Shown here: piece by piece, positions 30,265 through 34,394 of the stretch
Position numbering within the stretch: the stretch's first letter is position 1
How the letters are laid out: every line of letters begins with the position of its first letter
Origin: a virus
IMG/VR virus record: IMGVR_UViG_3300034119_000121
Location: 1 to 37,097 of that record
Direction: 5' to 3' (one strand)
DNA length: 37,097 nucleotides
Position numbers and translations under genes: made by a program
Notes under the pieces: model-generated
What the model was told of the DNA's origin: nothing
Seen by the model: the letters and a program-made list of their open reading frames with translations, nothing else
Database searches by the model: none

Positions 30265-30987
30265 ATGTCTGAAATCATCTTTTTGTCGAACGTCCGTCTG
30301 TCCTTCCCGCATCTCGCTGAACCACAGCGTCAGATTAACGAGCAGACTGGCAAGGAACGCATCTCGTTCAATTGCGAGTTCATCATGCCGCAGGACCACC
30401 CCGGCTTCCAGCAGTTCATGGCACGTTACGGTGCCTTGGCATTGGAGAAGTGGAAGGAACACGCCCAGGCTGTCATGGGCATGATCCAGCAAGATCGCAA
30501 GACCCGTTGCTTTGGTCGTGGTGAGGAGAAGGTCAACAAGAAAACCTTCCAGCCCTACGATGGTTATGCAGGCCATGTGTTCATCACCGCAGGCCGCGAC
30601 ACCGCACCGCAGGTCATCCAAGCCGATGGTCAACCCATCGACCCCGCCAACACGATGGCGTATCAGCAACTGGCCCGCAAGATGTATGGTGGTTGCCGTG
30701 TTAACGCTGCCATCAAGCCTTGGCCGCAGGACAACAAACATGGCCGTGGCATCCGCTGCGACTTGATCGCTGTTCAATTTGCCGGTGACGATACTCCATT
30801 CGGTGAAGGAGCCGTTGATGCGTCTGGGATGTTTGGTGCGGTGGCGGGCGCTCCTGCTGGCATGTTTGGCGCTGCGCCTCAAGGTGCACCTGCGATGCCT
30901 ACTGCGCCGTTTGGTGCTCAAGGTGGTGGCAACCCTTACAACGCTGGTGGTGCGCCTACTGGCCTGCCTTCGTTCTTCGGCCAGTAA
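30265..30987 (+). CDS. DUF2815 ssDNA-binding-like protein
   Basis: This 240-residue protein matches DUF2815, proposed to have an OB-like, single-strand-binding role. It shows FLSNVRLSFPHLAEPQR at the start, ISFNCEFIMPQDHPG, YDGYAGHVFITAGRD, YGGCRVNAAIKPWPQDN and GRGIRCDLIAVQFAGDD. It ends in a Gly/Ala/Pro-rich flexible tail, as many SSBs do. It follows the DUF2800 nuclease, its usual partner, and is preceded by the GGAGTAAATGTA leader. Confidence 0.85.
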   Translation: MSEIIFLSNVRLSFPHLAEPQRQINEQTGKERISFNCEFIMPQDHPGFQQFMARYGALALEKWKEHAQAVMGMIQQDRKTRCFGRGEEKVNKKTFQPYDGYAGHVFITAGRDTAPQVIQADGQPIDPANTMAYQQLARKMYGGCRVNAAIKPWPQDNKHGRGIRCDLIAVQFAGDDTPFGEGAVDASGMFGAVAGAPAGMFGAAPQGAPAMPTAPFGAQGGGNPYNAGGAPTGLPSFFGQ

Positions 30988-30993
30988 TTAAAT

Positions 30994-31091
30994 TGGGGTG
31001 ATGTGCTTGCATAATGAGGCTGCGAGTTAAATGAGGAGCTGTGGGACAGCACATCGCAAGATGGAAATGAGGAACTAGCAGCATCACCCCA
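30994..31091 (+). ncRNA. Structured intergenic RNA candidate
   Basis: The gap between DUF2815 and the methyltransferase is bracketed by TGGGGTGATG (30994-31003) and CATCACCCCA (31082-31091), extendable by TGCT/AGCA past one bulged G. Inside are GCTGT-GGG-ACAGC (31038-31050), TGCGA/TCGCA (31021-31025 with 31054-31058) and three ATGAGG repeats. No U run follows and no convincing ORF is inside. It could be a leader structure that controls the methyltransferase, whose GGAG follows, or a small RNA. Confidence 0.5.
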
Positions 31092-31111
31092 CCTTGTAAG
31101 GAGTAAATGTA

Positions 31112-32062
31112 ATGAACAAAATTGAATTTGGCGACTGCCGCGACACAATGCGTCGATGGGCGAGCGATGGCGTGAAGGCGCAGATGTGCGTGACAAGCCC
31201 TCCTTACTTTGGCTTGCGCGATTACGGGCACGAAGGCCAGATCGGGCTGGAGCAAACCCCCGAGCAGTACATCTCGGCGATGGTTGAGGTGTTCCGGTGC
31301 GTGCGTGACGTGCTGGCCGACGATGGGACGCTGTGGCTGAACATCGGGGATAGCTATGCCGCCCAAGGCGGCGCACAGGTTCAAGGATCAAAGCAAACCA
31401 AAGGATCGCAGGCTGGAGCATGGAATGGAGAGACTCGCAAGCCACCACAAGGCATCAAGCCCAAAGACCTGATCGGCATCCCGTGGATGCTCGCCTTCGC
31501 CCTCCGCGCCGATGGCTGGTATTTGCGCCAAGACATCATCTGGCACAAGCCCAACCCAATGCCCGAGTCTGTACGCGACCGCTGCACCAAGGCGCACGAA
31601 TACATTTTTCTGTTGTCTAAATCGGAGCGGTATTTCTTTGACAGCGAGGCTATGAAAGAGACTGCCGTTGGTAATGCCAGCGGCGCAGCAGCTTCTTTCA
31701 AGCGCAGTGGTAGTAAACGCGCCCAAGTCATTCCGAATCAGACCGTTGGCACTCACCGCGAAGACAGAGAGGATGTTGCCTACAACGAAACCCGCAACCG
31801 CCGCAGCGTCTGGACAGTCGCCACCCGGCCCTACAAGGGCGCTCACTTCGCAACCTTCCCTCCTGCACTGATTGAGCCTTGCATTTTGGCTGGATCACAG
31901 CCAGATGACATTGTGCTTGACCCATTCATGGGCAGCGGGACAACCGCCGCAGTGGCCTTGCAGCATGGTCGCCAGTACCTTGGTTGCGAGTTGAATCCTG
32001 AGTACGGGCCTTTGCAGCAAGAGCGAGTTGCAAAGATTCAATTACCGGATTGGCTTAAATGA
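31112..32062 (+). CDS. Beta-class DNA methyltransferase
   Basis: This 316-residue S-adenosylmethionine-dependent enzyme modifies the amino group of adenine or cytosine (N6 or N4). The catalytic motif TSPPYFGLRDYG (28-39) comes first, and the cofactor motif DPFMGSGTTAAVALQHGRQY (about 270-289) comes near the end, the beta-class order. SPPY favours N4-cytosine or N6-adenine and does not decide between them. IIWHKPNPMPES is typical of the group. No restriction enzyme is adjacent, so it likely protects phage DNA or marks it. The stop overlaps the polymerase start (ATGA). Confidence 0.9.
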   Translation: MNKIEFGDCRDTMRRWASDGVKAQMCVTSPPYFGLRDYGHEGQIGLEQTPEQYISAMVEVFRCVRDVLADDGTLWLNIGDSYAAQGGAQVQGSKQTKGSQAGAWNGETRKPPQGIKPKDLIGIPWMLAFALRADGWYLRQDIIWHKPNPMPESVRDRCTKAHEYIFLLSKSERYFFDSEAMKETAVGNASGAAASFKRSGSKRAQVIPNQTVGTHREDREDVAYNETRNRRSVWTVATRPYKGAHFATFPPALIEPCILAGSQPDDIVLDPFMGSGTTAAVALQHGRQYLGCELNPEYGPLQQERVAKIQLPDWLK

Positions 32063-33912
32063 GTAACGATTATGTCTACGATGTGGAAACCTTCCCCAAC
32101 GTCTTCACGTTGGCGGTGGAACACGCAGACGCGCCGCTTCAGTGGATGTTTGAGATCAGCGATCACCGCAACGATTCGCGTGAGATCGTCGCGTTCCTTC
32201 AGTACTTGAAAGACACCGATGCCCGCATGATCGGGTTCAACAACCTTGGCTTTGATTACCCCGTGGTGCACACCCTCGTGCGCATGGGCCACAGCGATGC
32301 CAACACGCTGTACCAAAAGGCGATGGCGATCATCAACGCGCAAGACGACGATGGTGGCCGCTGGATGCACTCTGTCAAGACCTCTGACCAGTTCGTCACG
32401 CAGATCGACCTGTTCAAGATCCACCACTTTGACAACCGCGCCCGGTCCACCAGCCTCAAGGTGCTGGAGTTCAACATGCGCAGCGACACAATTGAAGACC
32501 TGCCGTTCCCTGTGGGCACTACACTGAACCGCACACAGATCGAAGTGCTCAAAGAGTACAACAAGCACGATGTGGCGCAGACCAAGGCGTTCTATCACCA
32601 CACGCTTGACATGATCCACTTCCGTGAAGAACTGACGCGCAAATACGCCCGTGACTTCATGAACCACAACGACACCAAGATCGGCAAAGACTACTTCACC
32701 ATGAAGCTGGAAGAAGCCGGTGTCGCCTGCTACGACTTTGGCCCCAAGGGTCGCACACCTCGGCAGACCAAGCGCCCGGTGATCGCGCTCAAGGATGCCA
32801 TCTTGCCGTGGATCAACTTCGAGCATCCTGAATTTAACCGGGTGATGAACTGGCTCAAGGCTCAGACCATCACCGAAACCAAAGGGGTCTTCAATGACCT
32901 CACAGCAACAATCAATGGCTTTACTTTTGTCTTCGGCCTTGGAGGAATCCACGGCTCCATCGAGTCAGAGGTCATCGAGTCTGACGGTGAGTACGTCATC
33001 GTGGACTTGGATGTCACTTCATACTATCCAAACTTGGCAATCACGAATGGGTTTCACCCGACCCATCTCGGAAAAGAGTTTGTCAGCATCTACAAGCACC
33101 TGTTCGAGCAGCGCAAGTCGTACCCCAAGAAGTCAGCCGAATCGGCAATGCTGAAGCTGGCGCTGAACGGCGTCTACGGTGACAGCAACAACCAGTTCAG
33201 TGTGTTCTACGACCCGCTGTTCACCATGTCGATCACACTTAACGGTCAACTGCTGTTGTGCCTATTGGCCGAGGGGTTGATGCACATCCCCGGCCTGCGC
33301 ATCATCCAGGTCAACACCGATGGCCTGACAGTGCGTGTGCCCCGCAGCCACAAGATGCTGGTCGATCTGGCCCGCGCTGCATGGCAGTCGCGCACCGGGT
33401 TGAACCTTGAGGAAGCCGTGTACAAGGCCATGATGGTGCGCGATGTCAACAACTACATCGGCGTGTTTGAGAACGGCAGCACCAAGCGCAAGGGTGCTTA
33501 CGAGTGGGACATGGAGTGGCACCAGAACGCTGGTGGGCTGGTGATTGCCAAGGTGGCCGAGAAGGTACTGGTTGAAGGTGCTCCCATCCGCGAAACCATT
33601 GAGCAGTGGCCCGACATCATGGACTTCATGCTGCGCACCAAAGTGCCCCGGTCGAGTCACTTGGGCATCGAGCGTAACGGCGTGACATCGCAGCTTCAGA
33701 ACACCACGCGCTACTACGTGGCCGAGGGTGGCGGGCAGTTGGTCAAGTACATGCCACCGCTTGCAAAGAAGCCCGAGCAGTGGCGCAAGTTTGCCGTTGA
33801 GAGTGGCTGGGGTGTGCAGCCTTGCAACGACATCAAGGACGCTGGCAAGCTGCCAGTCAATTTCGAGTATTATGTGAAAGAGGTAGAAAAACTTGTTCTC
33901 CACTTAGCATGA
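32059..33912 (+). CDS. Family B DNA polymerase
   Basis: This 617-residue replicative polymerase has proofreading exonuclease and polymerase domains. The exonuclease motifs are D8/E10 in YDVETFP, FNNLGFDYP (60-68) and Y167-x3-D171. Polymerase motif A is DVTSYYPNL with D318, motif B is KLALNGVYG (K366, N370, Y373), and motif C is VNTDG with D421. GLGGIHGS (293-300) lies where the YxGG link motif is. The first acid of motif C (usually DTD) is Asn here, which is tolerated since the second Asp is catalytic. It is short for family B. Protein priming cannot be decided, but a PrimPol primase is present. Confidence 0.92.
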   Translation: MSNDYVYDVETFPNVFTLAVEHADAPLQWMFEISDHRNDSREIVAFLQYLKDTDARMIGFNNLGFDYPVVHTLVRMGHSDANTLYQKAMAIINAQDDDGGRWMHSVKTSDQFVTQIDLFKIHHFDNRARSTSLKVLEFNMRSDTIEDLPFPVGTTLNRTQIEVLKEYNKHDVAQTKAFYHHTLDMIHFREELTRKYARDFMNHNDTKIGKDYFTMKLEEAGVACYDFGPKGRTPRQTKRPVIALKDAILPWINFEHPEFNRVMNWLKAQTITETKGVFNDLTATINGFTFVFGLGGIHGSIESEVIESDGEYVIVDLDVTSYYPNLAITNGFHPTHLGKEFVSIYKHLFEQRKSYPKKSAESAMLKLALNGVYGDSNNQFSVFYDPLFTMSITLNGQLLLCLLAEGLMHIPGLRIIQVNTDGLTVRVPRSHKMLVDLARAAWQSRTGLNLEEAVYKAMMVRDVNNYIGVFENGSTKRKGAYEWDMEWHQNAGGLVIAKVAEKVLVEGAPIRETIEQWPDIMDFMLRTKVPRSSHLGIERNGVTSQLQNTTRYYVAEGGGQLVKYMPPLAKKPEQWRKFAVESGWGVQPCNDIKDAGKLPVNFEYYVKEVEKLVLHLA

Positions 33913-34394
33913 TCAATCAATCCAAACTCCACGAAATGTTTGAGTACCGCGATGACGGAAATCTCATTCACCGACACACTGTTCAAGGTGGTAAACGCGC
34001 CGGTGAGATTGCGGGTTCCCCACATAACGCCGGTTACCGTCAAATCACAATTAGCCGCAAAAAGTATTTGATTCACCGTCTTATTTGGGTGTACCACTAT
34101 GGGGAAATGCCAACACAGATTGACCACATCAATGGGCAACGATCAGACAACCGAATTGAAAACTTGCGCGAGTGTTCGTACAGCCAAAACCACGGCAACA
34201 AGCGAATGAACCGCAACAACACCAGTGGGTACAAGGGTGTGTTTTTAGACAAGCGTGATGGTTTTTGGTTTGTGTATGTGGCGCATCAATACATTGGGCG
34301 CAGTCAATCAATAGAAGAAGCTGCCGCCATGTATGACAAAGCAGCCAAGAAACATTTTGGAAAATTTGCGTTAACTAATAAGGAGATGAAATGA
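33909..34394 (+). CDS. HNH/AP2 homing endonuclease
   Basis: This 161-residue protein has an N-terminal HNH_3-type nuclease (QIDHINGQRSDNRIENLREC, H73, with DNR and N85) and a C-terminal AP2-like DNA-binding domain (NNTSGYKGVFLDKRDGFW, GRSQSIEEAAAMYDKAAKKH). This is the standard free-standing phage homing endonuclease. It lies between polymerase and DUF3310 genes, overlaps the polymerase stop as ATGA and looks intact. A longer upstream frame overlaps polB and is rejected. Confidence 0.9.
   Translation: MINQSKLHEMFEYRDDGNLIHRHTVQGGKRAGEIAGSPHNAGYRQITISRKKYLIHRLIWVYHYGEMPTQIDHINGQRSDNRIENLRECSYSQNHGNKRMNRNNTSGYKGVFLDKRDGFWFVYVAHQYIGRSQSIEEAAAMYDKAAKKHFGKFALTNKEMK

Follow-up and report, generated by a model that had tools for sequence, protein, structure and literature searches.

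A stretch of 98 nt between the genes for a single-stranded-DNA (ssDNA)-binding protein and a DNA methyltransferase in the viral record IMGVR_UViG_3300034119_000121 (37,097 nt, the whole of which is called the window here) belongs, judging from comparative analysis, to an undescribed family of folded phage RNAs that reaches from Bacillus to Vibrio to freshwater phages. We designated it family E, and from the covariation of its helices we consider it virtually certain that the fold is real and conserved as a family.

The element begins 7 nt downstream of the stop codon of the ssDNA-binding gene (30985-30987), and ends just 5' of a probable ribosome binding site, as an earlier sequence-only reading of this DNA had placed it (Table 1). 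That reading also described an outer inverted repeat, of which the perfect 10-bp part stands (arms 30994-31003, TGGGGTGATG, and 31082-31091, CATCACCCCA, 10 nt and 100% complementary, with a spacer of 78 nt), while the extension to 14 bp with one bulge does not, as we found 10 bp, to which the MFE structure adds one U-G pair. A perfect inverted repeat of at least 10 bases appeared in 2 of 2,000 dinucleotide shuffles of the 124-base gap, and the whole window has five 10-base matches with arms 60 to 110 apart, two of them being one overlapping pair. The folding energy is moderately unusual, both for the 98-nt strand (-34.2 kcal/mol, z of -2.80, with 3 of 200 shuffles equally good) and for the entire gap (z of -2.12). 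The other interior features that had been listed are all present, namely, the 5-bp hairpin (here, helix P3), another possible pairing of 8 bp (31000-31007 with 31048-31055), and three repeats (AATGAGG at 31013, 31030, and 31066). No promoter was seen around the element in the window. We rejected an intrinsic terminator, as no GC stem followed by a T run was found in 30700-31400, and also a tRNA, as ARAGORN found no tRNA gene in the window and Rfam gave no tRNA match. The short ATG frames in the window's element were discarded as genes, since by eye they are not kept among the members. Farther downstream, directly behind the polymerase gene, a frame at 33822-34394 of the window resembles, by eye, an HNH endonuclease.

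Table 1. Features of the window around the family E element and predicted parts of its fold.
Feature	Position	Strand	Basis or remark
Upstream gene, phage ssDNA-binding protein	30265..30987	+	PF10991 Enc34_ssDNA-bd; phrog_112 Gp2.5-like
RNA element (family E), predicted four-way junction	30994..31091	+	Pairing, folding, covariation, model R1 (110.1 bits)
Helix P1, 5' arm	30994..31003	+	Complementarity, covariation
Linker UG	31004..31005	+	With the last P1 base, GUG
Helix P2 (31006-31011 with 31021-31026) and loop UAAUGAGGC (31012-31020)	31006..31026	+	Covariation
Joining strand UUAAAUGAGGA (second GAGG)	31027..31037	+	Alignment; partly within search patterns
Helix P3, GCUGU-GGG-ACAGC	31038..31050	+	Missing in short members
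Helix P4, GCAA (GNRA) tetraloop	31052..31063	+	Covariation, loop count
Joining strand GAAAUGAGGAACUAGCAG (third GAGG)	31064..31081	+	Alignment; partly within search patterns
Helix P1, 3' arm	31082..31091	+	Complementarity, covariation
AAGGAG, probable ribosome binding site for the downstream gene	31098..31103	+	By eye
DNA N6/N4 methyltransferase, ATG at 31112	31112..32062	+	PF01555; the element also occurs without it

The evidence that carries the fold comes from 15 members aligned with MAFFT, for which a structure of 25 pairs was scored. Within its 327 cells, 93.0% are paired, and 19 of the 25 pairs show changes on both sides, in 74 cells, a value reached in none of 500 shuffles (mean of 22.4); when the registers are slid, only 27 to 49% of cells remain paired. 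P1, P2, and P3 are paired in 93 to 94% of cells in these 15 members and P4 in 89%, as L183 and L266 deviate there. All six pairs of P2 have double changes, and so do 6 of the 10 pairs of P1, which answers in favor of an RNA the check for compensatory change in the outer stem that had been set beforehand. Between L272 and the window, 5 of the 10 outer pairs differ, and all five are compensated. RNAalifold, unaided, recovered the same helices (20 pairs, 15 of them with double changes). An alignment of the 36 distinct members, which was fitted by the model and leans to the structure, has 92.7% of cells paired and double changes in 20 of 22 pairs. We also made a sequence-anchored count over 33 distinct members, leaving out three matches without anchors (the second copy of phage f2b1, L307, and L290), in which 197 of 198 cells of P2 and 179 of 198 cells of P1 are paired at register 0, compared with 23 to 32% and 26 to 44%, respectively, at shifts of one or two bases. 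Since elements in the position behind the ssDNA-binding gene (the slot) are nearly identical between contigs, it is chiefly the distant members that supply the covariation. The "structured RNA" of the sequence-only reading is thus strongly supported, as the helices covary across members.

Comparison of the members shows that the window element would fold on the coding strand as P1-UG-P2-UUAAAUGAGGA-P3-A-P4-GAAANGAGGAACUANCRG-P1', the strand being assigned because the P4 loop is a GNRA tetraloop in 14 of the 18 members with a stem there. P1 and P2 appear in the alignments as the constant helices and P3 and P4 as dispensable, so the predicted architecture is a four-way junction (P1 to P4) with a short form (P1-P2). 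Short members of ~68 nt without P3 and P4 include L288, L294, L296, L305, and L309, among others, and the minimal form has about 60 nt. One GAGG copy each lies in the P2 loop and in either long joining strand, so that all three belong to the conserved core; the alignment of 15 members contains 34 invariant columns. The conservation of the core strings AAATGAG and GAGGAACTA is partly selected, as both were partly in the search patterns, while the patterns that recruited the diverged members contained neither GUG nor the P2 loop nor the helices. GUG is found in 36 of the 36 distinct members, and the P2 loop, which across the family reads UANNGAGGC, has GAGGC (or GGGGC) in 33 of 36. L307, L290, and the second f2b1 copy (L287:3568-3632) lack the full set of three GAGG motifs together, as if the strands touch each other. 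These three diverged members argue against a strict requirement for GAGG, such as the binding of CsrA/RsmE through GGA motifs or a two-tier G-quadruplex formed by the GG pairs of the three copies might impose.

Members were gathered by pattern scans of viral sequences and genomes and then by a covariance model (R1). The exact core occurs in 11 stretches, 7 of them in the ssDNA-binding slot and 4 (L163, L165, L168, and L171) behind another gene. Over 718,691 bases in 90 loci, R1 gave 24 matches at an E value of 4e-16 or better, the next one being at 0.36. With E values of up to 0.05, the family has 37 members, 36 of them distinct and some outside the R1 training set; the members outside the model (L287, L288, L289, L296, L305, and others) score 50 to 75 bits. 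The window element, which scores 110.1 bits but is itself in the model, has all the marks of the family (P1, UG, P2 with a GAGGC loop, UUAAAUGAGG, and GAACUANCRG). Judged by their sequences, L176, L180, L182, L264, L265, L267, L268 to L271, L273 to L276, L279 to L283, and L285 were dropped as chance or coding, L268 and L270 among them being weak R1 matches (E values of 0.51 and 0.36). L293, L295, L299 to L301, L306, L308, L310, L312, L314, L315, L317, and L319 are not members (no model match or an E value above 0.05), and the near-identical copies L321, L297, L304, L278, L284, and others were kept out of the 36-member alignment.

Rfam 15 (4,227 families) gave no match in the whole window at the gathering score and none in 30900-31200 at E values of up to 2. 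Likewise, no Rfam match (E up to 2) falls at the place of the element in L174, L175, L177, L178, L181, and L183, the matches elsewhere in these six loci being tRNA, Betaproteobacteria-1, and two weak ones. In 299 Bacillota genomes, R1 matched solely in the genome of origin (L266) and in none of the 298 others; a plasmid search gave no family member, and each of the 16 records searched has one copy of the element. The RNA is undescribed in the parts of the literature that our search covered (PMC8040213, PMC11701678, and PMC7657543 among the sources), supplements and a 2017 paper on 224 RNA motifs lying outside it.

Two of the roles proposed by the sequence-only reading lost most of their credit in these comparisons. 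A leader switch of the methyltransferase through the alternative 8-bp pairing would fit an element that ends just 5' of the ribosome binding site. However, the element stays after the upstream stop codon when the methyltransferase is absent, and we regard such a switch as very improbable: what follows it is a polymerase-like start in L019, L056, L059, and L167 (by eye), a family A polymerase in L163 (the polymerase of the window is of another family, phrog_1252), another frame in L169 (by eye), and other sequence also in L168. The alternative pairing is poorly kept as well, being formed in 79.3% of cells versus 73.5% in shuffles, with few double changes. A tiny terminal-inverted-repeat DNA element would account for the perfect 10-bp ends and for the same element appearing at different places, but it is hardly credible: no target duplications were seen by eye in the slots, the ends covary instead of being conserved (as in the compensated pairs of L272), the conservation lies inside, at the junction, and each of the 16 records has a single copy.

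The slot itself is variable. Among 80 IMG/VR loci fetched by the ssDNA-binding protein, 77 have enough sequence past the stop codon, and in 72 of these 77 slots a GGGG lies at most 14 nt from the stop codon, a matching CCCC usually being found before the next ribosome binding site. The interiors, classed with custom regular expressions and counted with near-identical contigs included, are A in 26, B in 17, C in 9, a UUCG hairpin in 8, E in 4, and other sequence in 13. The gene of L004 is 94% identical to that of the window (723 bases) and those of L010 and L011 are 95% identical (653 bases), with a different cassette in L004 and a class A cassette in L010 and L011, which indicates that the cassette swaps faster than the gene diverges. 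A second lineage (L163, L165, L168, and L171) has a phrog_9528 gene without a Pfam match upstream, and its slots (76 of 80 loci) hold simple hairpins in 35 cases, B in 8, C in 5, E in 2, and others in 26. We do not call this upstream protein ssDNA binding, because its predicted structure (L163) has a pLDDT of 45.6 and is useless; accordingly, we do not claim that the element follows ssDNA-binding genes as a rule.

The other cassettes have features of their own. Class C (CCAGCRUUCGAGGAUG ...), found in the slots of L046, L060, L064, L065, L219, and L228, for example, has two helices that look interleaved, pseudoknot-like, and that by eye seem to covary (AGCCAG/CUGGCU to AACCAG/CUGGUU and CCGCAG/CUGCGG to CCACGG/CCGUGG). 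Class B (L005, L014, L033, L042, L047, L061, L069, L077, L181:11320-11378, L186 to L189, L227, L261, and L262) consists of a base stem, a GAA/AGUA internal loop that by eye resembles a bulged-G motif, and swappable tops, which are a tRNA-Thr in L077 (ARAGORN), a tRNA match in L047, and class A-like in L042. In L277, the family E element sits in a frame similar to class B.

Because the place stays the same and can be filled by different stable folds, a UUCG hairpin included, we tentatively favor a cis-acting block just past the stop codon, one that would shield the upstream cistron and insulate it. The window element would then be a 3'-untranslated or intercistronic cis element of the ssDNA-binding-protein cistron, folding once the ribosome leaves the stop codon into a compact knot with a GC-rich clamp closing it. 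After downstream cleavage or termination, 3'-to-5' decay would be kept out of the coding region, so that the abundant ssDNA-binding protein could be made regardless of the polymerase or methyltransferase cistron that follows. Different stable folds could serve the same purpose, which we propose as the reason why close relatives hold a UUCG hairpin or a pseudoknot-like or tRNA-like cassette in the slot. Where the slot has a simple hairpin, this could be an ordinary attenuator.

Outside the slots, 10 of 23 members start no more than 15 nt from, or overlap, the stop of a same-strand open reading frame (ORF; called mechanically), and by the same kind of ORFs the nearest one upstream is on the opposite strand in L316, L289, L178, and L318. 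In L305, one of these 10, the element lies 10 nt past the stop of a PF24083 ssDNA-binding gene, a family other than that of the window, and other upstream genes look by eye like portal, Hsp20-like, and transglycosylase-like proteins. One member is on a contig of Jeotgalibacillus campisalis (L266), while others lie in tRNA arrays (L287, L288, L183, and L311). Phage f2b1, like Eldridge a named phage of the Bacillus group, has one copy between tRNA-Asp and tRNA-Tyr and a second, weaker one (E value of 1.2e-5) between tRNA-Glu and tRNA-Gly, Bacillus phage Eldridge has a member near tRNA-Met, and in Vibrio phage vB_VviC_ZQ26 it lies in a noncoding stretch of roughly 1 kb; no annotation exists under the match in any of these three phages. 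In L291, L294, and L303, the element is found by eye at the place of the variable arm of a tRNA-Leu, between D-arm-like and T-arm-like stretches, with an acceptor-like stem closing the RNA and an odd anticodon arm, although neither ARAGORN nor Rfam (E up to 1) names a tRNA there. This range of contexts, from the slot and other genes to tRNA arrays and tRNA-Leu-like RNAs, suggests a plug-in RNA domain that serves unrelated phages.

Several neighbors of these members are worth recording. The array at L311:66-1139 is rich in RNAs: besides several tRNAs, it contains a DUF3800-VIII RNA and a tRNA-like RNA whose match to the 3' end of tmRNA stays below the gathering score. Just past the member in L298, a sequence starts and ends by eye like the tRNA-like domain of tmRNA, with little room for a tag frame and no Rfam tmRNA match (E up to 1). 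An uncharacterized protein of about 170 to 180 amino acids, a look-alike by eye in L309, L294, and L303, adjoins the element, upstream in L309 and convergent in the others.

A 3'-untranslated role makes little sense in tRNA arrays and in tRNA-Leu-like RNAs, which counts against the cis-acting block. Moreover, the 34 invariant columns go beyond the needs of a mere decay block and suggest a specific ligand, partner, or catalysis; together with the tRNA-array copies, the conserved core points to an activity of the RNA itself. One such reading is that the element is an independent functional RNA, which acts in trans or binds some protein or small ligand common to the hosts and which would be carried in mRNAs and tRNA transcripts and excised or used in place. 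The invariant columns, the free-standing copies among the tRNA genes of f2b1 (two) and near those of Eldridge and L311, the copies within tRNA-Leu-like RNA, and the one in the noncoding stretch of the Vibrio phage agree with it. Nevertheless, it seems doubtful, as unrelated folds, down to a plain UUCG hairpin, replace the element in the slot, which is unlike a specific RNA gene, and neither promoter nor terminator surrounds the window element.

A small ribozyme cleaving itself, and with it the mRNA, past the stop codon would fit the size (about 60 nt at minimum), the conserved core with its free helices (at least two), and the scattered contexts, tRNA arrays included. We consider it unlikely, given that no ribozyme family of Rfam matched, that there is no candidate cleavage site, and that a cut inside the tRNA-Leu-like RNAs would break them. 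Processive antitermination, or an RNA that binds RNA polymerase within extended operons of phage genes and of tRNAs, with HK022 put and EAR as the systems for comparison, has a similarly low probability in our judgment. The place on the coding strand of operons and tRNA arrays and the sharing of RNA polymerase by very different hosts would suit it, as would a T run soon after the element in L309 and L277 (by eye), but the window shows no link to downstream terminators, and simple hairpins are interchangeable with the element in the slot.

Drawing on both sets of contexts, it is quite conceivable, if short of probable, that family E represents a new class of RNA domain in phages. Such a domain would have a specific activity of its own, be it catalysis, an obstacle to a nuclease or a polymerase, or recognition of a host partner that is universally conserved, and would be inserted just past stop codons, among arrayed tRNA genes, and at the variable-arm position of tRNA-Leu-like RNAs; in the slot between the ssDNA-binding and polymerase genes, it would be one of several competing cassettes that phages swap with each other.

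To our knowledge, no general conserved structured RNA domain right after stop codons is known in phages of bacteria. T4 has stable CUUCGG hairpins between its genes, which are like the UUCG hairpins in 8 of the 77 slots of relatives; these are plain and lack the conserved junction of family E. The DUF3800 RNAs (RF03075 and others), a phage-associated group, are also small and structured, and DUF3800-VIII shares the array of L311, but they form a stem with an internal loop and no four-way junction, and no common sequence appears in the alignment. The stable RNAs rnaC and rnaD of T4, located in its tRNA cluster, are likewise extra small RNAs among phage tRNAs, and R1 had no match in that T4 region (L322) at E values of up to 1. 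The Betaproteobacteria-1 RNA (RF02932, 93 bits) is at most about 700 bases away from the family E member in L174 and L181, but in a separate stretch without overlap. Among known structured RNAs that follow a gene, the L17 downstream element (RF01708) comes closest, a structured RNA of the 3' untranslated region with its strand inferred from GNRA loops (PMC2864571). Like family E, it lies directly past a gene and has GNRA loops, and its authors call regulation by RNA domains in 3' untranslated regions highly unusual in bacteria (PMC2864571). Family E differs in that it has no Rfam match and follows another gene, and not one gene alone.

The function of family E is directly testable, as its fold is clear, its core is conserved, and some of its members are in phages with named hosts, and nature has already run the swap experiment, since the slot holds other RNA folds in relatives. 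If the element turns out to block exonucleases, to cut itself, or to steer RNA polymerase, it would represent a new RNA activity; if it stabilizes mRNA alone, these phages would keep a library of exchangeable RNA caps.
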